A stretch of 35,610 nucleotides of DNA from an uncultured Clostridia bacterium (GTDB lineage Bacteria; Bacillota; Clostridia; Christensenellales; Aristaeellaceae): positions 1-35,610 of the forward strand of contig CALVVZ010000009.1 in assembly GCA_944364075.1 (NCBI GenBank). Reading direction: 5' to 3'. Numbering within the stretch: position 1 is the stretch's first letter; each line of letters opens with the position of its first letter. This document shows positions 1,210-20,013 of this stretch, in pieces. The translations under genes and the position numbers were made by a program. The notes under the pieces were generated by a model that worked only from the letters and a program-made list of their open reading frames with translations, did no database searches and had not been told where the DNA came from.

Positions 1210-1220
1210 GCCCTTCCCCT

Positions 1221-3227: not shown

Positions 3228-3249
3228 ACGATTCCTCTCCTTTTCAGAT

Positions 3250-3405
3250 TCAAGTGCGAATTTGGATATGACGCGAAATAGCACGGACGCAAATTTTTTT
3301 CGTCGCCTTGCTACTGACTCCAAAGTTCACATTATACGTTTCCTTTATTTGAGTTATCGCAGATTTCCAGCTGCCGTCATCGAGTCGCGTACGCTGCACA
3401 CACAT
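3250..3405 (-). CDS. Possible small protein of unknown function (51 residues)
   Basis: A 51-codon frame starts with ATG at 3405, one base after the TAA of the GtrA-like gene. AGAGGA lies 6 bases upstream, so the start is well placed for coupled translation. It ends 22 bases before the PEP mutase start. The product is basic, with no signal peptide or membrane segment, and I recognise no family. It may be a small real protein or the remnant of a longer gene, since the 180-base gap it fills is unusual in a cluster that is otherwise tightly packed. The evidence is the ribosome site and position only. Confidence 0.35.
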   Translation of the reverse strand: MCVQRTRLDDGSWKSAITQIKETYNVNFGVSSKATKKICVRAISRHIQIRT

Positions 3406-3406
3406 G

Positions 3407-3871
3407 TTAGTTCCTCTTTTGTAACTTATCCAGCCAATTTGCATGCAGCATAGTCCGCTTAGTAATATAGTTCCAAGTCATTACCAACAAGGTTGCCAGT
3501 ATTTTATTGATCATATACATGCTTACAGTGAATCCCAAAATGGTAAATAATATAGCTTCTTCTCCAAATAGCAGTCTAAAAATAAGCATAAATAGTTCAT
3601 TAAAGAGAAGTCCCATTGCACTTGTTAAAAAGAAACCAACTTTAGTGGCATGTCCATTCTTTTTTGCCCCCTCAAATACCCATGCAACGCACATCAAGTA
3701 GTTGATCGCCACTGAACCCATGAAAGCGATGGGCGTTGCTATAAGGGTATCCAGGTGAAACCATTCCTTGAGCATTACCAGAAGAATAAATTCCACAGCA
3801 AAGCAAATTATACCTGTAATCAGAAAGCGGAAAATTTCCTGCATACGCGATGCTTGTTCTGCTCTTTTCAT
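3407..3871 (-). CDS. GtrA-family membrane protein
   Basis: This 154-residue protein has four hydrophobic segments and the GtrA/DPMS-like layout: an N-terminal FRFLITGIICFAVEF helix, then a loop containing INYLMCVAWVF, then two more helices. GtrA proteins are thought to flip polyprenyl-phosphate-linked sugars across the membrane for glycosylation on the outer face. ATG at 3871 is chosen over the longer frame because AAAAGAGGAA sits 7 bases upstream and because the upstream gene's stop is only 19 bases away. The upstream gene is the matching GtrB/DPM1-like transferase, so the pair probably works together. The gene lies in the AT-rich part of the cluster. The family is confident, but the flipped lipid is unknown. 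Confidence 0.88.
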   Translation of the reverse strand: MKRAEQASRMQEIFRFLITGIICFAVEFILLVMLKEWFHLDTLIATPIAFMGSVAINYLMCVAWVFEGAKKNGHATKVGFFLTSAMGLLFNELFMLIFRLLFGEEAILFTILGFTVSMYMINKILATLLVMTWNYITKRTMLHANWLDKLQKRN

Positions 3872-3890
3872 ATGCTGATTCCTCTTTTTC

Positions 3891-4862
3891 TCAACTAACC
3901 ATATGCTTCTGACGATCTTCCACCGTTTGTTTAACATTGTGAATAGATGCCAGAATGTTCATTTGTATTTCAAAACTCTGCCGTGCTTTTTTGCCTTGAG
4001 TATCTAATACAAGACCAATTGCAAAAAACAATAATGCAGCAATCATAATAAACCCAGATACCATAAGCGTAGGAATTCGCGGGACAAGCCCGGTTACGTT
4101 ATACTCAGCCATTACAGGCACAAACATTACAAGTGCTATAATTAGTAATAGAAAGGCAATAATGCTGAAAAAAGGTAAGGGTTTGTAATCCTTTACAAGT
4201 TTTCCAATGGTTTTTAGGACCTTGAATCCATCGGAAAAAGTGTTTAGTTTGGACTCACTACCAGCCGGTCTGTCTCGATAACCAACGGGCATGGAGGACA
4301 GTAACAAGTTCTTATCTAATGCGTGGATGGTCATTTCGGTTTCAATTTCAAAACCCTTTGACATAATCGGAAAACTCTTGACAAATGTGCGACTGAATGC
4401 TCGATATCCCGTCATGATGTCAGTAACATTTCCACCAAAGAAACTGTTAACTAGTTTTCGCACTAATAGATTCCCTAAATTATGGAAAGGACGCTTGTTT
4501 TCGGTAAAATATGTTGAAGATAGACGATCGCCTACAACCATATCAGCGCCTTGCTCTAATACTTGATTGACCATGTCACGGGCATTTTCAGAAGGATACG
4601 TATCGTCACCATCAATCATCAAATAGCAATCCGCATCAATCTCACGAAACATTGTACGGATAACATTGCCCTTTCCCTGGCGGCGTTCGTAACGCACAAT
4701 CGCTCCTGCTTTTCGGGCAATTTCGTCCGTTCCATCCTTGGAATTATTGTCATAAACGTAGATATCTGCTTCAGGTAGAACAGCCTGAAAATCAGCAATG
4801 ACTTTGGCAATGGTTTGACTTTCGTTGTAGCAGGGGATCAGAACAGCGATACTCTTAGACAT
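3891..4862 (-). CDS. GtrB/DPM1-like glycosyltransferase (GT2) with two C-terminal membrane helices
   Basis: The 323-residue protein begins with a GT2 domain: CYNES near residue 11, YDNNSKDGT near 37-45 and the metal-binding DGDD at 84-87. QGKGNVIR and TGYRAFS, typical of dolichyl-phosphate-mannose synthase relatives, are also present. Two strongly hydrophobic segments follow in the last third. Such enzymes transfer a sugar from a nucleotide donor to undecaprenyl phosphate on the inner face of the membrane. ATG at 4862 overlaps the end of the upstream DUF6020-like gene by 8 bases, so the two are translationally coupled. The GtrA-like partner follows 19 bases downstream. Which sugar is used cannot be read from the sequence. 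Confidence 0.9.
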   Translation of the reverse strand: MSKSIAVLIPCYNESQTIAKVIADFQAVLPEADIYVYDNNSKDGTDEIARKAGAIVRYERRQGKGNVIRTMFREIDADCYLMIDGDDTYPSENARDMVNQVLEQGADMVVGDRLSSTYFTENKRPFHNLGNLLVRKLVNSFFGGNVTDIMTGYRAFSRTFVKSFPIMSKGFEIETEMTIHALDKNLLLSSMPVGYRDRPAGSESKLNTFSDGFKVLKTIGKLVKDYKPLPFFSIIAFLLLIIALVMFVPVMAEYNVTGLVPRIPTLMVSGFIMIAALLFFAIGLVLDTQGKKARQSFEIQMNILASIHNVKQTVEDRQKHMVS

Positions 4863-7455
4863 CAAAATTATCTCCCTTCGTGCTGCTTATTTCGCAGTGC
4901 TCTTCGCTATCCAAATATACTTTCCGTTGATATAAAAATGTTACCAATGCTAATGTAATTACGCCTAGTTGAATAAAATAGATGTATCTAAAGCTTTGAT
5001 GATACAGCACCAATATCATAGCAACAATATTACCTAGAAGAGGTGCTGCCACATACCAAAGTTTGTTTAGTCGGTGCCTGTTCCAATAAAGGAATAAAAC
5101 AAATAGGAAAATCAAATATGCACCGCTTCGCCATAATAGCATGTCAGATAGCTGATCTTCTGCTCTCTCTCCCGGAAAAGCCCAGTATACCCATGCCCGA
5201 TATGTATCGGCAATCCTGTTATGAACGTAGTAGCCATCTCCATTTTCAAAGCCCTGGAATGCTAGGCCAACTTCATCATTGACAAAGATACCATCAAATA
5301 TTCGTGCATTAAAACTGTCTTCGTCATCTGGCTGTGAGACATCCCACATAATGTTCATACCATCTAGACGATCCTTAATTACAATATCTGGATATTTACT
5401 CAGAGCTTCAAAATAGATCTGGAAAGCTTCCTTTGCTCCAAAGGATGACAAGTCCATTTTGTTTTCACCACCGCCCCAGAGGTAATCATCGTGGCCCTTG
5501 AAACGTGAATAATAATTCTTCCAGTTTTCCATACTCATCACATCTTCAAGACGCGTCATTGTTTCGTTTGAAAGATGCTTGTCTTTATTCAGACAGGAAC
5601 CCACACCGCAAAACATCGTCACAAAGCTGGAAACCGGATTGGGCGCAACCTGCAATAAAGAGAAAACAGGCCCCTCAAATATGGCAATTATAATGCAGGC
5701 AGATGCCAAACAAGTCATCGCCCTTACCTTGATCATATGCCAGTGTCTGATCGTCATAATCAAAAGCACACAGGACATAAAAGCAAATGGAACTATTCCG
5801 TTATGCCGTAATTCCTTCAAAAGCACCATAGCAACGGATAATTCAACTAAAAATATCGGTTTGCGCAACATTTTGACGTCCATAATTATTTTAAATAGAA
5901 GAACCATTGCCCAAACCAGTACATAAGTAAAAGGGAAATCTTTCAACGGACTAATATTGGGAACTGCATTATTAGGCAATAATGCAAACAATGCGACGGA
6001 AAAAAATATGTTTCGGGCCTTTATACCACATGCATAAGGAATTCTTGCTACTTGTCCAATTAGGAGCGAGAAAAGGACAAGTTGAATTGCTACATTTATA
6101 GAAGGATGATCAACCAGTAAGAGTCCTGCCTTTATAAGCAAGGTATGCATAAGAGGATGCCAGTTGTCGTATACGTTGGTTCTGGCTTGCATCAGCTGCG
6201 AAACCGTATCTGATGGAAAACCACCTGGGAAAAAGCCAATAAAGGATATGGATAAAACGCCTAGCGCAATAAGGGAGGACAGTACTGCGACTGTGCGCTC
6301 GCTAAGTCTCCTGTCGGGTATAGTATGCAGTTCTGCGCTCCTTCCTACTTTTTCCATAATTGATAAAATCGCAAGAATAACAGGATAAAACCATAATGTT
6401 CCCAGGAGCAAATAGGCACAGCGATCGTAGGAGAAAGACATATAATTGCCTTGTAAGAATAATCGGTAGCCAAAGGATGCAAAAGAAGCATATAGACTTA
6501 CAAGAAAAACCCAAATCCACTCGCCACGTCTCTTTGCTATGCAACAGTCGTTTTTCTCCGCCTTGTACAAAATGAACAGCACTGCACAACCCAAGCCGCC
6601 CAAGACCAGACAAACTGAGGCTGCCGGTTTTATATAAGAAGATAAGAGGAACAATGCAACCGTAACGCTACAATAAATCAAACATTTCCACAGATAGCTT
6701 CTACTCATCAGGATAAAGATGACCGCTGTGCTTGCTGCAAGCACTAATAGGAAGGATAGCGCACAAAGTATCCACCCCATTACAGAAAGTGACTCATCGA
6801 ACTCAAAGACATACTGGCCTCCTGACGGAGTGTTTGCCGCAGCAAATAAGTTAACATCGTAACGTAGCTGCGGACTCAACTGAATCGTGCAATATCCGCA
6901 CCAAGAGTGTGACACAAATTCCATCTCGATATGAGGGTGTAATCCGGTATTCAGCACAATGGTTTGTGATTCTATGTCTTCAGAAAGAGTTGCCAAAAGC
7001 GCTTCACCATTTATCTGCCATCCAGCAGGGAGCGGGTCTACTGACGTTAAGTCAAACTCAGAGCCATCTTCAAAATATACGTGATTAAGCCATACTTCAT
7101 TACTATTTGATCCTTCAGGAACGGTAGAATAAGCAGTAATGGTAATTTGTCCATCTTGTGTATACTGATACCATTTTGCGCTTAGCATCGTGTCAAGTGG
7201 GATCAGCAACATTACTGCTAGTGCAAGAGAAAAACTAAGAAAAAGCAGTTCTCCTCTTCTGGAGGTACTTTTCCAGTTTCGCGCAAAAAGCCTGGAAATT
7301 CCTACGTATCCAATGCCTGCAAAAAAGCCAACAACCGTATAGCAATATGAATGCCACGTTTGAAATGTATCCAATATAAGTGGTAAAATGACACCGCCAA
7401 TTACTGCTCCCAGGGAATACTGTAACCATAGCGTTCGTTGCTTAGAATTTTTCAT
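4855..7455 (-). CDS. Large polytopic membrane protein, DUF6020-like, candidate GT-C glycosyltransferase
   Basis: The 866-residue protein has three N-terminal hydrophobic segments and a polar outer loop at about 93-222, which is rich in beta-type sequence and contains the cysteine pair CGYC. About ten further membrane helices follow. The FPGGFPSDT, then NWHPLMHTLL, motif at 409-440 matches what I know of DUF6020 proteins, a family of polytopic proteins found in Firmicutes glycan loci. The topology resembles GT-C enzymes that use lipid-linked sugars outside the membrane. Its neighbours, GtrB-like and GtrA-like, are what such an enzyme needs. ATG at 7455 follows AAAGGGAG by 8 bases. The DNA is very AT-rich compared with flanking regions, consistent with transfer. 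The enzymatic role is inference. Confidence 0.75.
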   Translation of the reverse strand: MKNSKQRTLWLQYSLGAVIGGVILPLILDTFQTWHSYCYTVVGFFAGIGYVGISRLFARNWKSTSRRGELLFLSFSLALAVMLLIPLDTMLSAKWYQYTQDGQITITAYSTVPEGSNSNEVWLNHVYFEDGSEFDLTSVDPLPAGWQINGEALLATLSEDIESQTIVLNTGLHPHIEMEFVSHSWCGYCTIQLSPQLRYDVNLFAAANTPSGGQYVFEFDESLSVMGWILCALSFLLVLAASTAVIFILMSRSYLWKCLIYCSVTVALFLLSSYIKPAASVCLVLGGLGCAVLFILYKAEKNDCCIAKRRGEWIWVFLVSLYASFASFGYRLFLQGNYMSFSYDRCAYLLLGTLWFYPVILAILSIMEKVGRSAELHTIPDRRLSERTVAVLSSLIALGVLSISFIGFFPGGFPSDTVSQLMQARTNVYDNWHPLMHTLLIKAGLLLVDHPSINVAIQLVLFSLLIGQVARIPYACGIKARNIFFSVALFALLPNNAVPNISPLKDFPFTYVLVWAMVLLFKIIMDVKMLRKPIFLVELSVAMVLLKELRHNGIVPFAFMSCVLLIMTIRHWHMIKVRAMTCLASACIIIAIFEGPVFSLLQVAPNPVSSFVTMFCGVGSCLNKDKHLSNETMTRLEDVMSMENWKNYYSRFKGHDDYLWGGGENKMDLSSFGAKEAFQIYFEALSKYPDIVIKDRLDGMNIMWDVSQPDDEDSFNARIFDGIFVNDEVGLAFQGFENGDGYYVHNRIADTYRAWVYWAFPGERAEDQLSDMLLWRSGAYLIFLFVLFLYWNRHRLNKLWYVAAPLLGNIVAMILVLYHQSFRYIYFIQLGVITLALVTFLYQRKVYLDSEEHCEISSTKGDNFDV

Positions 7456-7746
7456 CTGCAGGACTCCCTTTCTGAAGAAGATACTACAACCTGTATGTAG
7501 CATAAAGATTAATTCTAGCTACTAGCCTTGATAAGCGCAACAACCTAATATAATAACATACAATACTTTTCTAACAAAGCTGTAAGCCATATTTTCATGT
7601 GCATTAACTTAGGAATACAAATACCAGAAAGCAGTAGAAGCAAATGAAGCATATCTGCAACGTTGAAAGTATTGTTGACCAAGCTACTATCCATGTTAGA
7701 TAAATAGCTCCTAAAGATAGCATTAATGTCCGGGCACTATGTAAAA
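7456..7746. other. AT-rich gap inside the glycan cluster
   Basis: This 291-base stretch separates the GT2-GT4 fusion from the DUF6020 block. It has a candidate minus-strand promoter (separate entry) and no convincing terminator. A 49-codon minus-strand frame runs from ATG at 7694 to TAG at 7545 and would encode a hydrophobic peptide, but its AGGAGC site is 12 bases away and the promoter lies inside it, so I do not call it a gene. An overlapping hydrophobic frame (7604-7822) is also open. This may be a decayed membrane-protein gene. Confidence 0.5.
7550..7577 (-). promoter_or_regulatory. Candidate sigma-A promoter for the DUF6020-phosphonate block
   Basis: On the minus strand TTGTTA (bases 7572-7577) and TATTAT (7550-7555) are separated by 16 bases. 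The start would lie about 85-90 bases before the ATG at 7455. The region is AT-rich, so chance matches are likely. Its position in the only large gap of the cluster supports it. Confidence 0.4.
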
Positions 7747-9783
7747 TCAAGCCTTTATATTTACTCCTAAGCACTGTACAAAATACCTCCTGAACATATT
7801 TACAATCTTTCCCCAATCCCATTGCTGAATCTGCGCAAGGTTCTCCTGAGAAAGCTGCTCAAGCTCGTCTGGATGGTCAAGCAGCTTGCGTAGGGTGTCT
7901 GCCATACATGTTACGGTACGTTCCTTAAGCACATATTGCATCTGTTTCGGGCCAAACAACTCAGGCACTAACCCTACGTCCGTAGTAATAACAGGAACAC
8001 CGCAGGCCATAGCTTCCAAAATAGGGTTCGGCGTCCCCTCATGCAGAGAAGCACACGCATAAATGTCAATGCCATGATAGAAGTCAGGCATTTGCTCGTG
8101 TGGAATCAAACGGTCTACGCGATCAGAGGTAATGAGTTCAATGTCATATCCTTCAGCAATTAATTGCTGTATAGCAGGCTGAATGATCGTGTGGATGCCT
8201 TTGAGGTCATTCACAGCCCACTTGCTATTTCCAACCCAACCAATTCTCAGCGTCCGCCCTGTAGCGTTCTGAAAACGCTGTAAATTCTCTGGCTTAAAAA
8301 GGGATAAGTCTACACCATCGCACACAATGGTATCTGGTTTGCGCACAATGGCCGGATTTGCATCATAAAGCCTTTTCAATCGTTTTGTGGATACCGTATA
8401 ATGTGTAACAATGCTGTTCGGATCACTAAAAAGCTTCTGAGTAAAGTGAGCTTCTTCGCCTTCCAGCAGCAGATGATCATATACGCCTACAGAAATAACC
8501 TTGTTTTGCACATAACGCTGAAAGAACGCTTCCTTGGTCAATCCCAAGGCCTGAATTTTACTTTGCGTATATGCAGAATGAAAATCAGAAGCCAAAGGTC
8601 GCCACAAAAAATGAATCATCTGGCTATCTTTCGCCAACAATAAAATATCGGCAAGGTTATCAACATTTGAAAGATAAAGTTGCTGAAAAATAAACCTGTC
8701 CGACAAATGCTTAACTACCTGCTGAGCAACATGATCCAAAGCCCAGTCTGGTTTGTCAATAACTAAGGTAATAGTAGGCCGAGGCTTCGTTGCATTATCA
8801 GTGCTCGACTGACCCAATATTTCTTCATGACGCTTTTTTAACCAAGTATCTATACTGGGATTCCATACACAAAATCCATGCTTTTTTTCGAAGACTTCGG
8901 CCGATTTTTTTAACGGATTAAAAGCAAAACGTTGGACTTCATAGTTGGTATCGGATTTGGTTTTAGGTTTTGCATGGTCATGGATAAGACATGCAATACC
9001 ACATGTACCAATTTTCATGCCTTTCTGAAACAAGCGAACAGAAAGCTCTGTATCTTCAAATCCTACAAACATGTCTTTCTCATAGCCATCACATGCCAGA
9101 AAAGTATCTCTCTTGATAATACTAGCGCCACCGCACAAAAAAGTGCACAGGAAGGGTTCATGCTCCTCGTTTATTGGCACATTCTTACGAATAAGCACAC
9201 TGCCACCGCCTGCGCTTACACGTTGATTGATATTATCAATGTATAAATGCCCTCCGTATAAGAAGGAATCATGTCCTTCCTGGTTCAACAAGGGCACATT
9301 CATAAAATGACAGCCCAACTGTGCAATGTCTTTCTGAATTTTAGGTAGCGGATTTCCTACTAGGTAAATGTCATTATCAATTGAAAAAAGCCAAGATGTT
9401 TCTGCTGCAGCAAAAAGCCGATTTCTCCCAGGTCCCACACCATAGTTTTTCTTAAATTCCAGAATGCGGCAACGGTAGGGAACCTGCTTACATGCCAAAT
9501 ATAATCTTTCCAATTCTTCCGGTTCGGAACCATTATCGCCAATCAGAAATTCCCCGGCAAACCCAGGAATATGTTGAGCGATAGAATTCATGAGCCGTAT
9601 AGTGTAATCGGAACGATTCATGGACAGAACAGCAAAGGTTAGATTCTCACCATTAATGCCAATATTATCCAGAGAAACGAGATGTTCCGTACTTTCCAGG
9701 CCAATCAGTGCATGTTCCTTAGATGTGAAGTATGGAAGTGATTCAACATGCCAACCTTTTTCAAAGTCCTTCTTGATATCCAC
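7747..9783 (-). CDS. Two-domain glycosyltransferase, GT2 plus GT4
   Basis: The 678-residue protein has an N-terminal GT-A domain (about 45-290) with GDNGS near 82-86, a DND metal motif at 136-138, and the FLCGGASIIKRD and GFEDTELSVRL stretches seen in GT2 enzymes. The C-terminal half (about 340-678) is a GT-B fold GT4 domain with RIGWVGNSKW and the donor-binding E-x7-E motif in HEGTPNPILEA. It could therefore add two sugars in turn. GTG at 9783 is chosen because the GAGGAGG site directly follows the upstream stop codon region, 12 bases before the start. A longer TTG-started frame overlaps the previous gene without a ribosome site. It is the last gene of the first transcription block. Confidence 0.88.
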   Translation of the reverse strand: MDIKKDFEKGWHVESLPYFTSKEHALIGLESTEHLVSLDNIGINGENLTFAVLSMNRSDYTIRLMNSIAQHIPGFAGEFLIGDNGSEPEELERLYLACKQVPYRCRILEFKKNYGVGPGRNRLFAAAETSWLFSIDNDIYLVGNPLPKIQKDIAQLGCHFMNVPLLNQEGHDSFLYGGHLYIDNINQRVSAGGGSVLIRKNVPINEEHEPFLCTFLCGGASIIKRDTFLACDGYEKDMFVGFEDTELSVRLFQKGMKIGTCGIACLIHDHAKPKTKSDTNYEVQRFAFNPLKKSAEVFEKKHGFCVWNPSIDTWLKKRHEEILGQSSTDNATKPRPTITLVIDKPDWALDHVAQQVVKHLSDRFIFQQLYLSNVDNLADILLLAKDSQMIHFLWRPLASDFHSAYTQSKIQALGLTKEAFFQRYVQNKVISVGVYDHLLLEGEEAHFTQKLFSDPNSIVTHYTVSTKRLKRLYDANPAIVRKPDTIVCDGVDLSLFKPENLQRFQNATGRTLRIGWVGNSKWAVNDLKGIHTIIQPAIQQLIAEGYDIELITSDRVDRLIPHEQMPDFYHGIDIYACASLHEGTPNPILEAMACGVPVITTDVGLVPELFGPKQMQYVLKERTVTCMADTLRKLLDHPDELEQLSQENLAQIQQWDWGKIVNMFRRYFVQCLGVNIKA

Positions 9784-9800
9784 GGTATGCCTCTGCCTCC

Positions 9801-11384
9801 TCAGATATCCTTGCCGAATAGTTTCCAAATGCGACGTTTGATCGGAAAACCAATGTTTAGTAACTTAAATCCGCGAGATGACTTGATTAAAGATAGCTCT
9901 TGCTGCAAATGAGTTTTCTCTTCGATAGTACGCTGAAGTTCCTGCTTAATTTGATTTGAAACAGCCTGATATTCATTACTAACTCTTTCCAATTCAGCAC
10001 GGGTTTTCCAGAGCGAATCGGAAAGTACTTCCTTCTCTTTGCAAGTAAGCTCCCAGAACATGGATATTCGCTGTCGCTCCAATCCACCGATATGTGCATC
10101 GTGTGCTGCCTGTTCTTTGATATATCCGCAATAAGACTGACTGTCCTCCAATTGTCCTTGTAAAGCATCAATGGTTTGCTGCATTAGTCGTTGCAGCTCT
10201 TGCTCATGCTCCGCTGCAGCCTGTGCCTGTTGAGCCATTTGTTGCCGCAATTCCTGCTCATGCTGGGCTGCAACCTGCGCCTGTTGCTCCATCTGCTGTT
10301 GTAGTTCCTGCTCATGCTGGGCCGCAACCTGCGCCTGTTGAGCCATTTGTTGCCGCAATTCCTGCTCATGCTGGGCTGCAACCTGCGCCTGTTGCTCCAT
10401 CTGCTGTTGTAGTTCCTGCTCATGCTGGGCCGCAACCTGCGCCTGTTGCTCCATCTGCTGTTGTAATTCCTGCTCACGGGCTGAAGCACGTTCGGCTTGC
10501 TGCTGAAGTTGCGCTCCTAATTCTTCTGCACGCGTTACCAAACGTCCGGCAGCTGGTAAATCATATTGTTCCCGGAGCCAAGTCTCAGTATCTTCTTCTG
10601 TTGTCTGGACAAGGCCCTCCCTGGGATATGCCACCATATTTGTACCTATACCTTTGGCCGGCCCCCATACAGCTACATAGTAGTTGCTGTTCCAATGATT
10701 AAGATAGCGATCTCCTGCTAATTGCAAGGCTTGGTCTGATACTTGATGATCAAAAAGGGACAACATATTTTCTGGTATCTGGGCAAGCTGATGATCTCCC
10801 GGAGGTAAGGTGCTGCGTTCCAGGGGAATGGTCATGTATCCACCTATGCCAAAGGCTAAGAAATATCGCACACTGGTTCCAAGAATTGGTTCAACCATTT
10901 CTTTAAAGTCAAAATAGGTATATTGTCTCTTATGAAATGGATTATCGGGTGCTCCAAACTGCTTATAATATGGATCATTCGGACAGGACATGATAACGAT
11001 GCCGCCGGTTTTCAGGACACGTTTGATTTCCCGTAAGAATGCCTCGGGGTGTTCCAGATGTTCTATAGTTTCAAACGAACATACCATATCAAAAGAAGCA
11101 TCCTCAAAAGGTAGTTCTTCGCAAGTATGACATTGAAAATGAATATCCTTTTGAGCAAAAAGATTGGTCGCTTTTTCAATCGCCTGTTTATCAATGTCAA
11201 TCGCTTCAACCGACTGCGCTCCCCATTTTTTGAGAAGAGACGCACCATAGCCCTCACCGCAAGCGGCATCAAGCACACGCTTTCCTCGTACGGAACCACG
11301 CGCCAATGCATAACGCGACAAATGAATAGCTGCCTCTAAGGAGCTATACGCCGCCCCTTCTCCGAAATCAAGACGTTCGATCAT
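9801..11384 (-). CDS. SAM methyltransferase with a long repeat-bearing coiled coil, WbdD-like layout
   Basis: The first 245 residues of this 527-residue protein are a class I methyltransferase: motif I VLDAACGEGYG (37-47), acidic EAIDID (60-65), SFDMVCSFETIEHL (97-110) and GGIVIMSCPN (127-136). Residues about 285-500 form a glutamine-rich coiled coil containing five 18-residue repeats (308-397). A basic, aromatic tail follows (SSRGFKLLNIGFPIKRRIWK), possibly membrane-binding. In E. coli O9a WbdD, a methyltransferase-kinase caps the growing O-polysaccharide and its coiled coil sets chain length. The arrangement here is similar, but there is no kinase domain. The ATG overlaps the upstream stop (ATGA), indicating coupled translation. 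The methyltransferase call is firm; the cap-and-ruler role is inference. Confidence 0.9.
   Translation of the reverse strand: MIERLDFGEGAAYSSLEAAIHLSRYALARGSVRGKRVLDAACGEGYGASLLKKWGAQSVEAIDIDKQAIEKATNLFAQKDIHFQCHTCEELPFEDASFDMVCSFETIEHLEHPEAFLREIKRVLKTGGIVIMSCPNDPYYKQFGAPDNPFHKRQYTYFDFKEMVEPILGTSVRYFLAFGIGGYMTIPLERSTLPPGDHQLAQIPENMLSLFDHQVSDQALQLAGDRYLNHWNSNYYVAVWGPAKGIGTNMVAYPREGLVQTTEEDTETWLREQYDLPAAGRLVTRAEELGAQLQQQAERASAREQELQQQMEQQAQVAAQHEQELQQQMEQQAQVAAQHEQELRQQMAQQAQVAAQHEQELQQQMEQQAQVAAQHEQELRQQMAQQAQAAAEHEQELQRLMQQTIDALQGQLEDSQSYCGYIKEQAAHDAHIGGLERQRISMFWELTCKEKEVLSDSLWKTRAELERVSNEYQAVSNQIKQELQRTIEEKTHLQQELSLIKSSRGFKLLNIGFPIKRRIWKLFGKDI
10194..10463 (-). repeat. Five tandem copies of a 54-bp coding repeat
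   Basis: Units run 10194-10247, 10248-10301, 10302-10355, 10356-10409 and 10410-10463. Units 2 and 4 are identical base for base. Units 3 and 5 are identical except at the end encoding the RQQMAQQ or QQQMEQQ variant. The unit is in frame and encodes 18 residues of the type ELQQQMEQQAQVAAQHEQ. Eighteen residues equal five alpha-helical turns, so copy changes would lengthen or shorten a straight helix without breaking it. Near-identity between copies points to recent slippage or recombination. Confidence 0.95.
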
Positions 11385-12520
11385 TGTTCTACTCCCTTTC
11401 TGTGATTGGGTTGATTGATGAAAGCGTCAAATTCCTGCAATGCGGATTGACTGCCCTGGAAACCGGCAACACCCAGGCGCAAGCGGTCTGCCAATGCCTG
11501 ATCCGTGCAGAATCTTTGAATCGCCTGCGCAGCGTCAGAAGGATCAAAGCCACAGAGCAAGCCATTTTCACCATGACGAATATGCTCACGTGCGCCGGCG
11601 CTGTCGGTAGCAATGGGAGGAATCCCTAAGAGCATAGCTTCCGCCATCGCCAGTGGCCAAGCCTCATAATCGGACAGAAGTATAAACGCATCTGCCTGAC
11701 ATACATAAGGATAAGGATTTTCATGAAACCCCAGAAGCTGAAACCTTGTTTCCAATCCATATGCCGCAATTTGCTTTCGAAGTGACGAGAGCAATGAAGC
11801 ATCCGGCGTACTTCCAATACATAACCACGTAAAGTCTAACCCTTGCTGTGCCAGAAGGCGGGCAGTATCCACCATGCGCTGGTAACCCTTTTCAGCCCGT
11901 ACATTTGCCACGGTAATCAATTTAACGCCATGCGTTGGGAATGCCGGAACTTCCGTGGTGTGTTGCGCCAGCCTCACCAACGCTTCCCGATCCAAACAGT
12001 TGTGCAGGACAACACTCTTGTGACACAGAAATGGGTAGCGTTTCATGGCCCGTTGGCGTGTTCCTTCGGAAACAAAGATATACCATGCATAGGTATAGAA
12101 CGTGTCAAAGAACGTTCTGGGTTGGAAACTTGGTGCAGCGGTAATGTCTGTGTGGATCCATACACATTTGCATCGGGCTTGCACATAGTTCCCAACCCAG
12201 TCAGGAGAGCACCATTCACCGTAGCTGAACGCGAAGTCGTACACCTTGTCGCGTACAAAAGCACGAGCGACCTCTCCTCCCAGAAGAAACTCCTGTGTGG
12301 TCAACTGCAGTCGCTTTGGCTGATTTTCCGCGCCTGCATCACACAGGCGGACCCAAGCAGGAACTTGATCCAATAACGCGTTTGTAGCATTTGGCATATT
12401 GAGCACCAGCAGGTCCGCCTCGTATCGCTCAGAGGATAATGCGGATAACAGGTTGATAAGCGCCGTTTCCGCACCTCCCCGATATAGCTGAGTGATAACA
12501 AAGAGCAGAGACGTCTTCAT
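11381..12520 (-). CDS. GT4-family glycosyltransferase
   Basis: The 379-residue protein has a GT-B fold. The N-terminal acceptor domain opens with LLFVITQLYRGGAETALINLL, the glycine-rich start seen in GT4 enzymes. The C-terminal donor domain has LITVANVRAEKGY and the E-x7-E motif (E286 to E294 in YEAWPLAMAEA). It resembles the first half of the next upstream protein (GGAETxLxNLL, YDxAxSYGEW, WIHTD), so the two are probably paralogues that arose by duplication. The enzyme should add a hexose or similar sugar from a nucleotide donor to the lipid-linked chain in the cytoplasm. It starts 5 bases after the upstream stop and overlaps the methyltransferase gene by four bases. Confidence 0.9.
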   Translation of the reverse strand: MKTSLLFVITQLYRGGAETALINLLSALSSERYEADLLVLNMPNATNALLDQVPAWVRLCDAGAENQPKRLQLTTQEFLLGGEVARAFVRDKVYDFAFSYGEWCSPDWVGNYVQARCKCVWIHTDITAAPSFQPRTFFDTFYTYAWYIFVSEGTRQRAMKRYPFLCHKSVVLHNCLDREALVRLAQHTTEVPAFPTHGVKLITVANVRAEKGYQRMVDTARLLAQQGLDFTWLCIGSTPDASLLSSLRKQIAAYGLETRFQLLGFHENPYPYVCQADAFILLSDYEAWPLAMAEAMLLGIPPIATDSAGAREHIRHGENGLLCGFDPSDAAQAIQRFCTDQALADRLRLGVAGFQGSQSALQEFDAFINQPNHRKGVEQ

Positions 12521-12525
12521 TCCTT

Positions 12526-14883
12526 TTATTCATCCCCCTTGCCAAACAGCCGCTCCAGTTGTCCAATAATCTGCGCGGAATTGTCCACTTGCGCTCCACG
12601 CAGGTTATCGCGCCATTGCACCAAATGTTCCGGTTGCGTGAGTATCATACATAGCGCCTGCTCAATAGCCTGCTCATCATTCTCCACCAGCAAACCATTC
12701 TGATCGCTACGTACCTGCTCGGGAATCCCGCCTACCTTGGTAGCAAGCACAGGCGTCCCAAGTATTAATGCTTCGTCAATGGTCACGGGTAATCCTTCAT
12801 ATTTGGAAAGTAATGCAAATAAATTAGCGGCTTTCATGAGCGGATAGGGATTTTCCAAATTGCCCAGGAAAGTAACGTGGCTTTCCAGCTTCAGTTTTCG
12901 GCAAAGCGTTTGCCACTCGTGTAGCATCACGCCGTCACCCGCAAAGTACCAGTGAAAGCGCAGACCTTCCGCTTTCAGGCGCTGCACCACCGACAGGATC
13001 CGCTCCACCGCCTTTTCGCGATCCATTCGGCACACCGAAACAATATTGATTGTATCCGGCTGAAATCCCGGTACAGCCAAGGGCGCCTCGGATTTTTCCC
13101 TGATTTCCGCCACCGGCTGCAGATTGCGAATCACCAGCACTTTGTCTGCCAAATGCGGATACTTCTGCACAAATCCGCGACGGCTCAGCTCCGTAAGACA
13201 AACCACATGGTCAAAGCGCTTATACATCTCCCCATCGTTGGCTGTAATCTGCCGGGTCCAGTCTGACCAATCGCTCCACAGGGCGTAGTCCGTATGAATC
13301 CATTGAATTTTCCGAGGATGGCGAAGTTCAGACACTTGTTGCCGCAGCTGGGAACCTTCGCTGAGCACACAAACGGTGTCAAACCGTTCAAAGTACTCCC
13401 GGGTCCTTTCCCCCGCCAGGCGCTTCATGGCCCATTCTTCCTTGCCGAGCTTGCGCAACACGCCAAACATCAGCCGTATGGCGCGTTGCCGCAAGGTATA
13501 TCCCCGGCCAAAAAGGACTTTCCATATTTTCAAAGAAAGGCAGCTGATGCCGTTGCAGGTTTCCAGATCCATGATAGGTATGCCTGAAAACAGCCGCTTG
13601 CTGCGCTCGTCCGGAGGTTCCATGCTGAACACCGTGATATCAAAGGCATTCCGCAAGGCATGAATCTGCGTAGCTGTCACTCGCTGCACGCCGCTCACAT
13701 AGTTGATGTTGTCGCTGATATACAGTAAGCTGGGCCGCCTTCCGGCACAGCATGCCGCAAGCTCTGTTTCGAATTCCCGCACGGCAATGCTGCGGGTCGA
13801 AAATCCCTCCAAATTCCGGCGTATACGTGCCTGTAGCGGCTTGTCGGACAAAAAGCGTTGAATAGACGCAGCAATCGCCTGAGCCGAAAAATCACATAAA
13901 ATCCCGGTTTCTCCGTCAGCAAGCTGTTCCAGAGCGCCGGAGGTTTTCGTAGCGATGACCGGCACGCCCAACACTTTAGCCTCGGAAATCACCATGGACC
14001 AGCTTTCAAAATCGGACAGCACGCACACCGCATCGGCAGCTCGCATCAGCCGATATGGGTTCTCCTCTGCGGGCAAGCACAGAAAGTTTTCCTGCAATCC
14101 ATGGCGTTTGACCGCCGCACGAATCTGTCCCAGTAGCGCCGTATCCGTATCGCTACCAATGTTCACCCATGTAAAGGATAAGCCGCGCTTTTTCAGCAGC
14201 GCCATAGCCTCCACCTGACGCAGGTGATTCTTCTCTCGGCGGAAATTGGCCACCGTAATCAACAACGGTTTTTTCCAGGCATCTGCCTCCGGCGCAGGCT
14301 GCTCGGCCTGGAAGCGTATGGCATCATCATCGCACAAATTATGCACTACGGCCGCTCGGCCTTGCAGCATGGGATAGCGCAGAAGCGCTTCCTGCATGGA
14401 GCGCTGGGAAGGGAACAGATAGAGACTTATTTCATGATGGAAACGGAACATGATCTCCGCATTAAAGAACTGTGCCTTGTCGATGTCTGAGTGGATCCAT
14501 ACAATCTTACGATCCGCGCATACATGCCGGGCAACAAATTCGGGGGAAATCCATTCACCATAAGAGATGGCGACATCGTAATGCTTTCCACGCACAAAAC
14601 GATAGCATGCATCCCGGTAAAGCTGTTTACCGGAGGCGTCCCGCACAATGCGTGAAAGCGCCTTTTTCAAAAAAGCGCGGCCATGCTCATTTTCGGCTGC
14701 ATTGCACAAGTTTACATAGGCAGGCACGCGAGGCAGCAACGACACCGCCTCGGGAAGGTCCAGTTGGTCATAGACCAGCAGATCAACCTGATGTTCCTGT
14801 GGGGACAGGGCGTTGAGCAGGTTAACAAGGTTGGTTTCTGCCCCGCCTTTATATAGCTGATTGATGACGAAAAGAATTTTCAC
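12526..14883 (-). CDS. Double GT4 glycosyltransferase (two GT-B domains in tandem)
   Basis: The 785-residue protein holds two complete GT4 units. The first (about 1-370) starts KILFVINQLYKGGAETNLVNLL and has ESWSMVISE as its E-x7-E. The second (about 385-785) starts LLYISDNINYVSGVQRV and has EGLPVTIDE. The start is GTG at 14883, with AAAGGGGG 6 bases upstream; an ATG slightly earlier would overlap that site. The first half resembles the following single-domain GT4. Two catalytic halves suggest sequential addition of two residues, or synthesis of a disaccharide repeat. The upstream ABC ATPase gene ends 36 bases away. Confidence 0.9.
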   Translation of the reverse strand: MKILFVINQLYKGGAETNLVNLLNALSPQEHQVDLLVYDQLDLPEAVSLLPRVPAYVNLCNAAENEHGRAFLKKALSRIVRDASGKQLYRDACYRFVRGKHYDVAISYGEWISPEFVARHVCADRKIVWIHSDIDKAQFFNAEIMFRFHHEISLYLFPSQRSMQEALLRYPMLQGRAAVVHNLCDDDAIRFQAEQPAPEADAWKKPLLITVANFRREKNHLRQVEAMALLKKRGLSFTWVNIGSDTDTALLGQIRAAVKRHGLQENFLCLPAEENPYRLMRAADAVCVLSDFESWSMVISEAKVLGVPVIATKTSGALEQLADGETGILCDFSAQAIAASIQRFLSDKPLQARIRRNLEGFSTRSIAVREFETELAACCAGRRPSLLYISDNINYVSGVQRVTATQIHALRNAFDITVFSMEPPDERSKRLFSGIPIMDLETCNGISCLSLKIWKVLFGRGYTLRQRAIRLMFGVLRKLGKEEWAMKRLAGERTREYFERFDTVCVLSEGSQLRQQVSELRHPRKIQWIHTDYALWSDWSDWTRQITANDGEMYKRFDHVVCLTELSRRGFVQKYPHLADKVLVIRNLQPVAEIREKSEAPLAVPGFQPDTINIVSVCRMDREKAVERILSVVQRLKAEGLRFHWYFAGDGVMLHEWQTLCRKLKLESHVTFLGNLENPYPLMKAANLFALLSKYEGLPVTIDEALILGTPVLATKVGGIPEQVRSDQNGLLVENDEQAIEQALCMILTQPEHLVQWRDNLRGAQVDNSAQIIGQLERLFGKGDE

Positions 14884-14919
14884 AGGCATCCCCCTTTCTG
14901 CACAGTAACAAGGCAAGCC

Positions 14920-15654
14920 TTATTCCCATGCGCCTTCGTAAGCCTGGCAAACTTCCTGGGCTGGGCCGTACATACGCACATGCCCTTTATCCAGCCATAG
15001 GGCTTTGGTGCAGAGTTTTTCAATCTGAGACGTGGAGTGGGAAACAAACAGCATCGTTGCGCCGGAATGAATCAGCGTTTCCATACGCGCAAAGCTCTTT
15101 TCCTGGAATTTGTAGTCACCTACGGAGAGGATTTCATCCAGAATCAGAATGTCCGGGACATTCATCGTTGCAATAGCAAACCCCAGACGCGCCGTCATAC
15201 CAGAGGAGAAATTCTTGATTGCAATATCGGCAAAGTCCTCCAGTTCGGCAAACTTCAGGATCTCGTCATAGTGCTGCGCCATATACTCGCGAGAATAGCC
15301 CAGCACCGCACCGTTCAGGAATATATTTTCCCGGGCGGACAGCTCCGGGTCGAAGCCGGCGCCCAGCTCGATCAGCGGCGCAATGCTTCCATAGGTTTCC
15401 ACCGTACCGGAAGTCGGCTTCAAAATCCCGCTAATCAGCTTAAGCAACGTACTTTTGCCCGAACCGTTCAAACCCACAACGCCTAGCGCGTCGCCCTTTT
15501 CCAATTCGAAGGATATATCCTGCAGCGCCCAGAACGGCTGCACAGAGATTTTATGCTTGAGCACGCGAATCAGGTATTCCTTGATGCTGTCTACCTTTTC
15601 ACTGCTCATATTGAACATCATGGAAACATGATCGACCCGCACGCTTACGCTCAT
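14920..15654 (-). CDS. Polysaccharide ABC exporter, ATP-binding subunit (Wzt/TagH/RgpD-like)
   Basis: The 244-residue ATPase has Walker A GLNGSGKST (61-69), the signature segment FSSGM (149-153), Walker B DILILDE (168-174) and the switch histidine H206. The IELGAGFDPELSARENIFLNG stretch is typical of the teichoic acid, O-antigen and rhamnan exporter subfamily. It ends right after the nucleotide-binding domain, so it lacks the C-terminal carbohydrate-binding domain that O9a-type Wzt proteins use to recognise a capped chain. It would power export of a finished lipid-linked glycan. AGGAGG lies 7 bases before the ATG, and the partner permease gene ends 12 bases upstream. Confidence 0.95.
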   Translation of the reverse strand: MSVSVRVDHVSMMFNMSSEKVDSIKEYLIRVLKHKISVQPFWALQDISFELEKGDALGVVGLNGSGKSTLLKLISGILKPTSGTVETYGSIAPLIELGAGFDPELSARENIFLNGAVLGYSREYMAQHYDEILKFAELEDFADIAIKNFSSGMTARLGFAIATMNVPDILILDEILSVGDYKFQEKSFARMETLIHSGATMLFVSHSTSQIEKLCTKALWLDKGHVRMYGPAQEVCQAYEGAWE

Positions 15655-15666
15655 GTCGGCACCTCC

Positions 15667-16473
15667 TCAAATGTAAAGCACAAAGCGATCCTGCCTACGG
15701 TAAAATACCGCCAGTCCAATCGCAAGCATAATCAGGCTTACGACAATGCAGGCCAGATTTTCCAACACGCCCGGGACCTGGCCATACAAGATCAGATTGC
15801 GCATGTAGGAGACGTAATGATACATGGGGTTGAACTTCATCAGCGTCAGAGCTGCTTGCGGCAAGATCTCCACGGGATAAAAGATTGGTGTGAAGTATGT
15901 CCAAGCCAGGATAAATACTCCGTAGAAATGTGCAATATCCCGGAAAAAAACCGTTAGGGCAGCCAGCAGCATACCCAATCCTACGGCAAAAATGAACGTG
16001 TAAAAAATAGGAATAGGGAGCAGCAGCAACGTGGGATAGAACGGAGCCTGTGTAAGAATCATCACAATCACCATGGCAATCAGCGAGAAAGCCAGGTTGA
16101 CCAGGCTGGAAAGCACACATGCGATGGGAAACAAATACTTCGGTAAATAAACCTTTTTGATCAATGAACAGTTGGAGAGGATCGAATGCATCGCATTGGA
16201 GGTTGCTTCGCTATTGAAAGAGAAGATCAACGATCCGCTCAGATAGTAAATTGGGAAATTAGGGATGTTTTGCTTAAAAATGGTTGAAAAAACCACCGTA
16301 ATAACGCACATCATCAGCAACGGGTTCAGCACTGTCCAAACCAAGCCCAATATGGATTTGCGATAACGCACCTTGATATCGCGCACCACCAGTTCCCGAA
16401 GCAGGTTGCCATATTTGCGGAAGGCCTCCACCAGGTTGGTGACGCGAAGCCACAGCCATGCAAACAAATTCAC
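15667..16473 (-). CDS. Polysaccharide ABC exporter, ABC-2 type permease (Wzm/TagG/RgpC-like)
   Basis: The 268-residue membrane protein has the ABC-2 signature. An amphipathic N-terminal region with ELVVRDIKVRYRKSILGLVW is followed by six hydrophobic segments, with YFTPIFYPVEILP and FNPMYHYVSYMRNLIL in the usual places. It should form the membrane channel with the next-gene ATPase and move an undecaprenyl-linked polymer outward. The start used is GTG at 16473, only 3 bases after GAGGAG. A TTG two codons later would have better spacing, so the exact start is uncertain. The preceding GT2 gene ends 11 bases upstream. Confidence 0.94.
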   Translation of the reverse strand: MNLFAWLWLRVTNLVEAFRKYGNLLRELVVRDIKVRYRKSILGLVWTVLNPLLMMCVITVVFSTIFKQNIPNFPIYYLSGSLIFSFNSEATSNAMHSILSNCSLIKKVYLPKYLFPIACVLSSLVNLAFSLIAMVIVMILTQAPFYPTLLLLPIPIFYTFIFAVGLGMLLAALTVFFRDIAHFYGVFILAWTYFTPIFYPVEILPQAALTLMKFNPMYHYVSYMRNLILYGQVPGVLENLACIVVSLIMLAIGLAVFYRRQDRFVLYI

Positions 16474-16484
16474 TCACTCCTCTA

Positions 16485-17456
16485 TCATGATTCTTTCCGT
16501 GCCAAATGCGCAACGCAGCGAAAAATCTTCTCGCCTGGCAGCGTCAGTATGGCTGCGCAGCGATTCTTAATGCGGGCATGGGGTGTAGTCAGCACGCGGA
16601 AGCTGAGACGGCGCATACGATGCCAAAGTTTGCGCGCCTCCTGCTGCCATACGGGCGTGGCAGGAAGCGCCAGATACACCTGGCATAAGCAGCTGAACAG
16701 CCTGCAATCTGCAGCTGTCTGGCACTCCGGACAGTTCTCCTCCACAAAGGCCCGGAGCTGTTCCATTGCCCGCAGTTCGTCCAGCCGCCGGGGGTCAAAT
16801 TCGCCCATCATAATACTGGCAGGACGCAAGCGGTAACCGTAAAGCACGCGGCCGGTCCACGCCACGGTGCGCGCGCGCCATAGCAAACGGTAAACTGTGG
16901 CCAGGTCCTCGAAAAGCCATCCTTCCGGAAACGGACAAGCTTGCGCATCCGCCGTTCGGTAAAGCTTCCCGCACGCACTGGTATCAAAGAGACGTTGATA
17001 CAACATATGTTCCAACGCCTCCCGGCCGGAAAATACCGCCTCCTGACCATCACGGCCGTTGGAACGGAATGGCGTTTCCGGCGGACGAAAGCGGCGCATG
17101 GGGCACACCGCAATATCCGCTCCCTGACGCTCCATCAGAGACCACAGCGTTTGCACGCATTCAGGAGCAATCAGATCATCCCCATCCACATAGGTAATAA
17201 GCTCGCCCTGGGCAGCAGCAGTGCCTGTGTTGCGGGCAGCAGCCAGCCCTCTGTTAGGCTGGTGGATCACGCGGACACGCCGGTCCGCTTGCGCATAAGC
17301 ATCCGCTATGGCTCCGCAGGCATCGGGGGAGCCGTCATCCACCAGCAGCACTTCCAAATGCGGATAGGTTTGCGCCAGGATGCCATCCACGCAAGGTCCC
17401 ATGGTATCCGCCACGCCATAGAGCGGAACAACCACAGAAATCAACGGTTGTTTCAT
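16485..17456 (-). CDS. GT2-family glycosyltransferase
   Basis: The 323-residue protein shows a standard GT2 A-type domain in its first 230 residues: ISVVVPLYG, LLVDDGSPD (37-45), QPNRGLAAARNTG (66-78), the catalytic metal motif DGDD (91-94), and WLFEDLATVYRLL in place of the usual ED acceptor motif. The remaining 90 residues are basic and helical, with no clear membrane span. It should transfer one sugar to the lipid-linked acceptor on the cytoplasmic side. The ATG overlaps the upstream GT4 stop codon (ATGA), so the two are coupled. Confidence 0.92.
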   Translation of the reverse strand: MKQPLISVVVPLYGVADTMGPCVDGILAQTYPHLEVLLVDDGSPDACGAIADAYAQADRRVRVIHQPNRGLAAARNTGTAAAQGELITYVDGDDLIAPECVQTLWSLMERQGADIAVCPMRRFRPPETPFRSNGRDGQEAVFSGREALEHMLYQRLFDTSACGKLYRTADAQACPFPEGWLFEDLATVYRLLWRARTVAWTGRVLYGYRLRPASIMMGEFDPRRLDELRAMEQLRAFVEENCPECQTAADCRLFSCLCQVYLALPATPVWQQEARKLWHRMRRLSFRVLTTPHARIKNRCAAILTLPGEKIFRCVAHLARKES

Positions 17457-18592
17457 GGCCGTATCCTCCTGCAGGGCTTGTTCCGCACACTTTCCAGCAT
17501 CGCGGTATAGTATTTCAGCAGGCGGCGCGCCGTGTCGCGTATATCAAAACCGCTTTGGGTCACGCTGGCATAAGCGTTGGCGCGTTTTTCCCCGTCGGCA
17601 TGTGCAAGCACCGCGTCCAGTGCCTGTATCCATGCCGAGGGGTCCAAGGGCAGAAACGTAACATCCCCTCCCACCGCCGCCTCCATCGATACATGGTCTG
17701 ACACAAGGCAAGGCAGTCCATTTGCCTGCGCCTCAACGCATACCACGGGAACACCTTCATAGAGGCTGGGCAGCATAAAGACGTCCATGACGCTATACAA
17801 CCGCCACGGATCATTCCGCACGCCCGCAAAGCAAACAGCATCGCTGACTCCCAGCCTTTCCGCCTGCTCTCGAGCACTGCGAATCCCTTCGCCGCCTCCC
17901 GCCAGCAGCAAATGCGTCTGGGGGTGGGACGCATGGCACTGCGCAAAACACTTCAACAAAAACCCATGGTTCTTCTGCGGCATGAAGCGTCCGATGTGTC
18001 CTATCACCTGCTTTCCCTGCAAGCCCAGTTCCTGACGGATCTGTTCGCGCTGCAACGGATCATAGCGAAATTTGCATACATCAATGGCATTGGGCAAAAT
18101 GGTCACACGGCCCGCATCAACCCGCCTGTTTCCGAAGAGCCAACGGGCAGCTTTTTCCCCGCAGGCCATGTACGCCGTAGCAAACCAGGTTGCGGTAGGA
18201 CGAAGCAATAACTTGATGAACGCCCGAAAACCCTCTCCCCGATCCGCCGTACTGTGATTATGGCTCACGCGCACCGGAACGCCAGCCAGCCAGGCGGCAA
18301 ACAGCGTAAGCACATTCAGCGTATTCAGGTGCGCATGCACCACCTGGTACCCTCCGCTACGAAACAAGCGCACAAGGGCAATCACTCGCGCCAGGGGATG
18401 CGCGCTGGAAGGAACATAATGATAGGCGATACCTCGCTGAACCATGTCCTCGGGCGGTGAATGCTCGGAGGTAGTATCCACAAACAAGTCAAAGCTGACG
18501 GCAGCAGGATCTGAAAAGCGGCAGTAATTGTTTACCACGTTCTCTACACCCGCAGCCGCCAGTTTGCCGATTACCTGAGCCGTTTTGATCAT
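17453..18592 (-). CDS. GT4-family glycosyltransferase, EpsF/CapM-like
   Basis: The 379-residue enzyme has the acceptor-domain features GVENVVNNYCR (15-25) and VVHAHLNTLN (84-93), and the donor-domain features HIGRFMPQKNHGFL (199-212) and E279 to E287 in YEGVPVVCVEA (the E-x7-E motif). This pattern is common in enzymes adding the second or third sugar in Bacillota exopolysaccharide loci. It directly follows the initiating phosphotransferase gene (26-base gap), so it may add the second sugar. The donor sugar cannot be read from sequence. Confidence 0.92.
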   Translation of the reverse strand: MIKTAQVIGKLAAAGVENVVNNYCRFSDPAAVSFDLFVDTTSEHSPPEDMVQRGIAYHYVPSSAHPLARVIALVRLFRSGGYQVVHAHLNTLNVLTLFAAWLAGVPVRVSHNHSTADRGEGFRAFIKLLLRPTATWFATAYMACGEKAARWLFGNRRVDAGRVTILPNAIDVCKFRYDPLQREQIRQELGLQGKQVIGHIGRFMPQKNHGFLLKCFAQCHASHPQTHLLLAGGGEGIRSAREQAERLGVSDAVCFAGVRNDPWRLYSVMDVFMLPSLYEGVPVVCVEAQANGLPCLVSDHVSMEAAVGGDVTFLPLDPSAWIQALDAVLAHADGEKRANAYASVTQSGFDIRDTARRLLKYYTAMLESVRNKPCRRIRP

Positions 18593-18618: not shown

Positions 18619-20013
18619 TTACAGGGCGGCGCGTCCTGATCCGCCGATCTGTTCCTGATTGATCATGCCGCCCAGAAGCGTTCTGGCCAGAATTTGCAGG
18701 TCCAGTAAAAAGCTCCAGTTTTCAATGTACCACAGGTCATGCTCCACCCGTGCGGGAATGCTGGTATCACCGCGCAAGCCGTGGATTTGTGCCCAGCCGG
18801 TCATACCGGGCCGAACCTGGTACTTTACCATATACAGAGGAACTGTCTCGCGAAAACGCTCGACAAAATAAGGAATTTCCGGGCGCGGCCCTACAAGGCT
18901 CATATCGCCGCGAAGCGTATTCCACAGCTGAGGCAGTTCGTCAATGCTCGTCTTACGCAAAAAAGCCCCGAGCTTGGTGCGCCGTGCGTCCGTCTGGGTC
19001 GACCATGCAGTATCCTGCGCATTGTTCACATGCATACTGCGGAACTTATACATAACGAATGGTTTTTTGTTTAATCCAATCCGCTGCTGTTTGAATAGCA
19101 CAGGACCCGGACTCGTCATCTTGATGGCAATTGCCACCGCCAGGAGCAAGGGGCTGGCAACTATCAGAAGCAATGCGCTGGCAACAACATCAAAAGAACG
19201 CTTGATAAAAGCATTTAGGGGTTCATCCAGCGGCGTTGTACGCAACTGGATCAGCTTCAGATTGCCTATGGTATCAATGGTAGGGCGTGTCGGAATCACA
19301 TCGTTATAAAATGGTACAACGCTGATTTTTGTACCGCACTTCTCACATACGCGAATTATATCTGTTGTGACAAAAAGCTCCGTTGGCTCCAGTGCCATAA
19401 TCACTTCATCAATTCCGGTTCCGTAGAGAGCGCCTTCCAATTGCGCAAGCATGTCCTTGTCGGGCGTAAGCATCTGCTCCACATGAATACCAAGATCCGG
19501 CCTGGCGTCCACATTTTCCTTATATCGCTTGGCTAAGTCTCCCCCGCCTACCACCAGGATGTGCTTCAGATTATAACCGCGCGCACGGATCTTCCGGAGC
19601 AGCAGCCGCACAAAAAAACGCTTACCTATTAGCGCTGCGCTACTGGTTGCAAAATATACCGCCAGCACGCCGCGCGAGAAATCCTCCAGACGAAACAGGT
19701 ACAGCGCCGAGGCTGCCGTCACCAGTGCGATCCCATTGCCCGCCAGTATCCTCCGGTACACCCGTCCTGTTCCGTGTACACGGCTTGTACGATAGATCCT
19801 GAAAGCCGAAAGCAACGCTACCGTCCACGCTGCATATACAATTGCAATGAACAGTCCTTTTCCTGTTATCCTGTCCAAGGCAGCCAGGTTGTCTTCCGTT
19901 TGCCGGATCACATCCAACCATAGCCAGGCAGAAAATAGATAACATAGCAGTATCAGCACACCGTCCGAAAGGACGTTCAAACGGTTGAGCGTCTTTTGAT
20001 ATTTCTGAATCAT
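18619..20013 (-). CDS. Undecaprenyl-phosphate sugar phosphotransferase (WcaJ/EpsL-like initiating enzyme)
   Basis: The 464-residue protein has four N-terminal membrane segments, a soluble Rossmann-like central part (HILVVGGGDLAKRY, 151-164) and a C-terminal bacterial sugar transferase domain. That domain contains KRSFDVVAS (271-279) with the re-entrant hydrophobic helix, MYKFRSM (321-327), the catalytic SIDELPQLWN (356-365) and GPRPE (375-379). Such enzymes place a sugar-1-phosphate (often glucose, galactose or a bacillosamine-type sugar) on undecaprenyl phosphate to start glycan synthesis. It is the first gene after the long leader, consistent with its role. GCGGAG lies 4 bases before the ATG. 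Confidence 0.93.
   Translation of the reverse strand: MIQKYQKTLNRLNVLSDGVLILLCYLFSAWLWLDVIRQTEDNLAALDRITGKGLFIAIVYAAWTVALLSAFRIYRTSRVHGTGRVYRRILAGNGIALVTAASALYLFRLEDFSRGVLAVYFATSSAALIGKRFFVRLLLRKIRARGYNLKHILVVGGGDLAKRYKENVDARPDLGIHVEQMLTPDKDMLAQLEGALYGTGIDEVIMALEPTELFVTTDIIRVCEKCGTKISVVPFYNDVIPTRPTIDTIGNLKLIQLRTTPLDEPLNAFIKRSFDVVASALLLIVASPLLLAVAIAIKMTSPGPVLFKQQRIGLNKKPFVMYKFRSMHVNNAQDTAWSTQTDARRTKLGAFLRKTSIDELPQLWNTLRGDMSLVGPRPEIPYFVERFRETVPLYMVKYQVRPGMTGWAQIHGLRGDTSIPARVEHDLWYIENWSFLLDLQILARTLLGGMINQEQIGGSGRAAL

Follow-up and report, generated by a model that had tools for sequence, protein, structure and literature searches.

The locus described here raises the question of whether a methyltransferase joined to a long, repeat-containing coil can act as terminator and ruler of an exported glycan, and whether the number of repeats can tune the length of that glycan. 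The gene lies in a stretch of 35,610 nucleotides from an uncultured Clostridia bacterium, indicated hereafter as the window; an earlier interpretation made from the letters alone (the sequence-only reading) had proposed a counterpart of WbdD in which whole repeat units, gained or lost by slippage, would change the glycan in steps. The features of the gene and of its operon are collected in Table 1.

Table 1. Features of the methyltransferase-coil gene and of the surrounding glycan operon (positions in the window).
Feature	Position	Strand	Basis
Methyltransferase + helical arm + basic tail gene	9801..11384	minus	527 aa, ATG start
Class I SAM methyltransferase domain, residues 15-242, motif VLDAACGEGYG	10659..11342	minus	Pfam + structural match
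First long helix (predicted), residues 278-428, 151 aa, about 226 Å if straight	10101..10553	minus	AlphaFold, DSSP
Five tandem 54-bp / 18-aa units, order A A' B A' B', consensus EQELQQQMEQQAQVAAQH	10206..10475	minus	TRF, unit alignment
Second helix (predicted), residues 434-502, beyond H-I-G-G break	9879..10085	minus	AlphaFold model
C-terminal basic helix (predicted), coil-exit motif S-R-G-F-K-L-L, residues 503-527	9804..9878	minus	sequence, AlphaFold
Initiating polyprenyl-phosphate glucose phosphotransferase (WcaJ family)	18619..20013	minus	TIGR03023, 428 bits, cut-off 411
GT4 glycosyltransferase	17453-18592	minus	domain search
GT2 glycosyltransferase	16485-17456	minus	domain search
Wzm-like ABC-2 permease	15667..16473	minus	domain search
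Wzt-like ABC ATPase, 244 aa, without C-terminal carbohydrate-binding domain	14920..15654	minus	ABC_tran only
Dual GT4 glycosyltransferase, candidate polymerase	12526..14916	minus	two GT4 stretches
GT4 glycosyltransferase, start/stop overlap with methyltransferase gene	11381..12520	minus	domain search
GT2 + GT4 glycosyltransferase, immediately downstream of methyltransferase-coil	7747..9828	minus	same neighbour in L070, L071

The N-terminal domain is recognized by the Pfam family Methyltransf_11 on residues 38-132 (E=1.4e-24) and by a structural search whose top row is 3l8d (Z 20.9, rmsd 2.9, 186 aligned). The class I fold is common to many methyltransferases and is silent on the substrate; WbdD is absent among the 50 structural matches listed, which is no evidence of a differing fold. 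The sequence-only reading would fall if the repeats were not helical; in the AlphaFold model a single helix (residues 278-428) spans the entire array, located at residues 304-393 of the 527-aa protein, with pLDDT of about 84-90 across it. The helix is interrupted at residues 429-433, a predicted break that allows a hairpin rather than a straight rod, and the terminal helix is modelled at residues 504-523. Residues 283-500 contain no proline; the array, rich in Q and A, has a weak core. The proposed joining of a methyltransferase to a long helix, here a predicted one, and to a tail within an ABC-exporter glycan operon is borne out by Pfam, by the fold match, by AlphaFold and by the genes of the operon.

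Toward lower coordinates these genes follow the order WcaJ-type transferase, GT4, GT2, Wzm, Wzt, dual GT4, GT4, methyltransferase-coil, and GT2+GT4, and a 4-bp ATGA overlap joins the start of the methyltransferase-coil gene with the stop of the upstream GT4 gene (11381-12520). The role of polymerase would be played by the dual GT4. The same run probably includes, downstream, an 882-aa polytopic protein, an AglJ/DPMS-like GT2, GtrA, and two phosphonate-type genes. In particular, the minus-strand region 3407-7503 encodes the GtrA-type membrane protein, the AglJ/DPMS-like GT2 and the 882-aa polytopic protein, which has no Pfam match, a trio that looks like a three-component system adding a sugar after export. 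On the same strand, positions 205-3323 encode a fusion of three parts, namely MobA-like nucleotidyltransferase, cytidylyltransferase-like domain and PEP mutase, the last recognized by TIGR02320 (397 bits, cut-off 320), and then an iron alcohol dehydrogenase; given these phosphonate tailoring genes at the operon end, the glycan may bear a phosphonate group. A search of the genome of the window (85% complete) for PF14524 (Wzt_C), the carbohydrate-binding domain (CBM) by which a Wzt reads the cap, gave no match, and the same model detected the domain in the partner Wzt of WbdD and in two related genomes used as controls.

The presence of five near-identical 54-bp units encoding 18 residues is confirmed by TRF, which on the window returns 54 bp x 5.1 and also 108 bp x 2.7, with a score of 469; units 2 and 4 do not differ at any of their 54 bases, and the remaining pairs match at 42-52 of 54. 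Chance origin of the repeats is excluded, the highest TRF score among 200 codon-order shuffles being 57 versus 469 observed. Where the same residue is compared between units, the codons are identical in 116 of 150 cases versus 67.6 ± 6.8 expected with random synonymous choice, and the highest count over 2000 simulations was 104; the same protein, recoded, reaches a TRF score of at most 406. Since the likeness of the DNA is above what the protein repeat imposes, the array is considered a recent tandem expansion, in which duplication probably went by a 108-bp A'B step. The array occurs once, and was not found at any other place in the same genome. The peak of its hydrophobic periodicity lies at 3.62 residues, a value that agrees with 18 = 7 + 11, a heptad plus a hendecad. 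The earlier statement that 18 residues make five helical turns holds for an ideal 3.6-residue helix but is not independent evidence: the five-turn arithmetic was rejected as a separate argument because any in-frame periodic unit keeps its own register on gain or loss. For units of 54 bp, recombination or replication misalignment is a likelier route of copy change than short-tract slippage.

A single-sequence search of the genome contigs with the 527-aa protein gave no match, and an alignment of orthologues was required; the viral contigs scanned contained one generic methyltransferase only. Full-length orthologues, comprising methyltransferase plus linker, were found in only two other genomes: L070, from an uncultured Clostridia bacterium (the same place as L032/L063; 45% over 2-254), and L071, from Anoxybacillus sp. 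When the search was carried through relatives, family, order, class, and phylum, one further full-length orthologue only came up, G185, which is L070 itself. Both operons match that of the window, in the order Wzm, short Wzt, GTs, methyltransferase/coil, and GT2/GT4. The protein has 548 aa in L070, about 371 aa in L071, and 527 aa in the window, and the coil span differs by species: it is similar to that of the window in L070 and much shorter in L071, and the window repeat was found in neither coil. The Wzt frame of the Anoxybacillus locus shows an internal stop at about 6696, with homology going on in frame over residues 5-243 and no extension, due either to a pseudogene or to a sequence error.

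Remoter relatives include methyltransferase-coil proteins and WsaE-like methyltransferase-coil-GT2 fusions, mostly located beside a Wzt of at least 400 aa. A short Wzt accompanies, besides the window, six coil-methyltransferase loci (L070, L071, L066, L068, L081, and L137), and PF14524 was not found in the genomes of these six. A coil-exit motif of the type S-x-x-[WF]-[KR] is present in 17 of 34 coil-bearing relatives, a list that is partly redundant, versus 0.5% in shuffled tails.

The comparison with WbdD was based on the E. coli sequences of HS (O9) and IAI1 (O8), read from annotated genomes. The methyltransferase is distant from that of WbdD (25% over 137 aa), and one pairwise comparison with O8 WbdD by hhalign gave E=1.9e-8. 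O8 WbdD, a methyl-only terminator (K. pneumoniae O5), shares with the window protein the methyltransferase, the coil (in the window protein a predicted helix), the exit motif, the basic tail, and the ABC-exporter operon; the exit motif is SRSWR in WbdD and S-R-G-F-K-L-L in the window protein. In contrast, O8 Wzt is a 404-aa protein with a C-terminal extension, whereas the window Wzt has 244 aa, and the coil of E. coli O8 WbdD has no tandem array. WbdD of O9/O9a, a kinase-methyltransferase whose coiled coil is a proven ruler, likewise has methyltransferase, coil, membrane tail, and ABC-exporter operon, but the O9 system includes a kinase domain and the CBM of Wzt, and the window has neither; the Pfam search that detects the kinase in WbdD did not find this family in the window protein. 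The likeness to WbdD put forward earlier stands in part: the O8 domain order and the ABC operon agree, while the kinase is absent and a cap-reading Wzt domain was found neither in the operon nor in the genome.

In O9a, chain length is set by coil length and shifts with coil insertions and truncations (PMC5082667). The coil is described as the marker of the terminator strategy, in which the cap is read by the CBM of Wzt (PMC11231755). In Gram-positive bacteria, the terminal 2-O-methyl group of the Geobacillus S-layer glycan has been linked to the methyltransferase of WsaE; its methylation in vitro is independent of chain length, so that an extra length factor was thought necessary (PMC2943079). 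WsaE, compared here by its description, consists of a methyltransferase and two glycosyltransferases, whereas the window protein stops after the tail and its glycosyltransferases are separate. The WsaE-like fusions L074, L078, and L082 share with the window protein an N-terminal methyltransferase, a coil (predicted in the window protein), and an exit motif in the context of a Gram-positive ABC-exported glycan; the Wzt of L074 and L078 carries a CBM, unlike that of the window. The protein is not classed as a member of the WbdD/WsaE systems, because the cap-reading domain of Wzt was searched for and not found, and O9a-style export gating does not apply, because the Wzt of the operon has no such domain and none was found in the genome.

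Changes by whole units are not confined to the window. In 21 related loci, with the window itself left out and a TRF score of at least 100, five tandem arrays lie in 9.5 kb of coil versus none in the 303 kb outside it (Fisher p = 4e-8), although the loci are few and some are related. The array units in these coils are of 42 or 84 bp, i.e., two or four heptads. A tendency to duplications of this kind may be common to coiled coils at large. The L137 coil, from an Intestinimonas draft genome, contains at 11354-11605 six near-identical 42-bp (14-aa) repeats that vary at just five base positions, four of which are in the last copy; it belongs to a methyltransferase-coil-GT2 fusion accompanied by a CBM-less Wzt and is a second candidate for a repeat-built ruler arm. 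Among 80 relatives checked for copy-number variants of this array, none has the gene at E <= 1e-40. L075 (10771-10944) has exactly one extra tandem 84-bp coil unit (28 aa, four heptads) compared to its orthologues L077 and L084, and other coil gaps between close relatives measure 7 and 11 residues, which are in phase, and also 3 and 4. Change by whole units is therefore real, between species, for coils of this class. A keyword search found no paper on tandem-repeat variation in terminator coils.

The reading that we prefer, and to which we give about an even chance, is that the protein is a membrane-anchored terminator or scaffold of an ABC-exported surface glycan, WbdD-like in its working and closest to the methyl-only O8 type. 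The N-terminal methyltransferase would methylate the growing (non-reducing) end of the glycan, the long helix would hold its active site at a distance from both the membrane and the glycosyltransferases that polymerise the chain, and contact with the membrane and/or the polymerase would be made by the basic tail. The exporter partner has no carbohydrate-binding domain on its Wzt with which the cap could be read. Each unit, if helical, would add about 27 Å (18 residues x 1.5 Å), so that gain or loss of units would make the spacer longer or shorter in steps over evolutionary time. We infer termination activity, an oligomeric coil, ruler function, and an effect on chain length from these features. 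In the O8/O9a/WsaE scheme the CBM of Wzt provides the quality-control half, which is missing here, and the methyl could be mere decoration.

This last point leads to the alternative that survives best, a serious though clearly less probable one, according to which the glycan is O-methylated, internally or at the end, without length control; the helix would be only a scaffold for oligomerisation or membrane anchoring of the glycosyltransferases, repeat number would be near neutral, and length would derive from the ratio of transporter to polymerase. The model for this condition is K. pneumoniae O1/O2a, whose transporter, like that of the window, has no CBM, whose chain length depends on transporter:biosynthesis stoichiometry, and where the O1 terminal pyruvate merely diversifies the structure (PMC11231755). 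The window Wzt is in fact similar over its full length to the galactan (O2a-type) Wzt model, with a score below the curated cut-off. However, O1/O2a is described as a system in which no coil terminator sets the length (PMC11231755), whereas the window and the six short-Wzt loci retain the coil.

Going beyond the preferred terminator reading, it is unlikely that the ruler alone sets glycan length with a cap-blind transporter, whole in-phase helical units being gained and lost, possibly within populations, in a third ABC configuration. A length that may be adjustable inside one population is a reasonable hypothesis. An active contingency locus, as in the sequence-only reading, in which the number of units would shift so frequently among the cells of a population that the glycan is tuned stepwise, is likewise unlikely. 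The recent, high-identity array, the comparable six 42-bp units of L137, and the one-unit difference between L075 and L077 speak for it. Against it, E. coli WbdD is constant in length, at 2127 bp in 48/48 full-length O9 copies listed (taken at even steps through a ranking with 210 genomes at a query coverage of 80% or more) and at 1278 bp in 59/59 full-length O8 copies listed (likewise, with 302 genomes); a routine switch by change of copy number is thus disfavoured for the WbdD family. Since arrays of this kind are absent from E. coli WbdD, it is a control for the family and not for the window array. The exact copy number is uncertain because the source genome is a draft of 271 contigs, 85% complete, and the 270-bp array exceeds typical short reads, but a pure assembly effect, in which the true array would be longer or shorter or two variants would have been merged, as the identity of units 2 and 4 might allow, is very improbable in view of the distinct unit variants in ordered succession, the open frame, and the single occurrence of the array in the genome.

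The published picture comprises two export strategies, a coil terminator with a cap-reading Wzt and a terminator-free system with a CBM-less Wzt, and the combination of coil and CBM-less Wzt in the window and in six other loci falls between them; the ruler and the export gate are thereby separated, and each is testable alone. Repeat-built coils represent a natural length series in which glycan length can be compared with spacer length without engineered insertions, and the copying of an 18-residue block is a way in which nature could lengthen a chain-length ruler.
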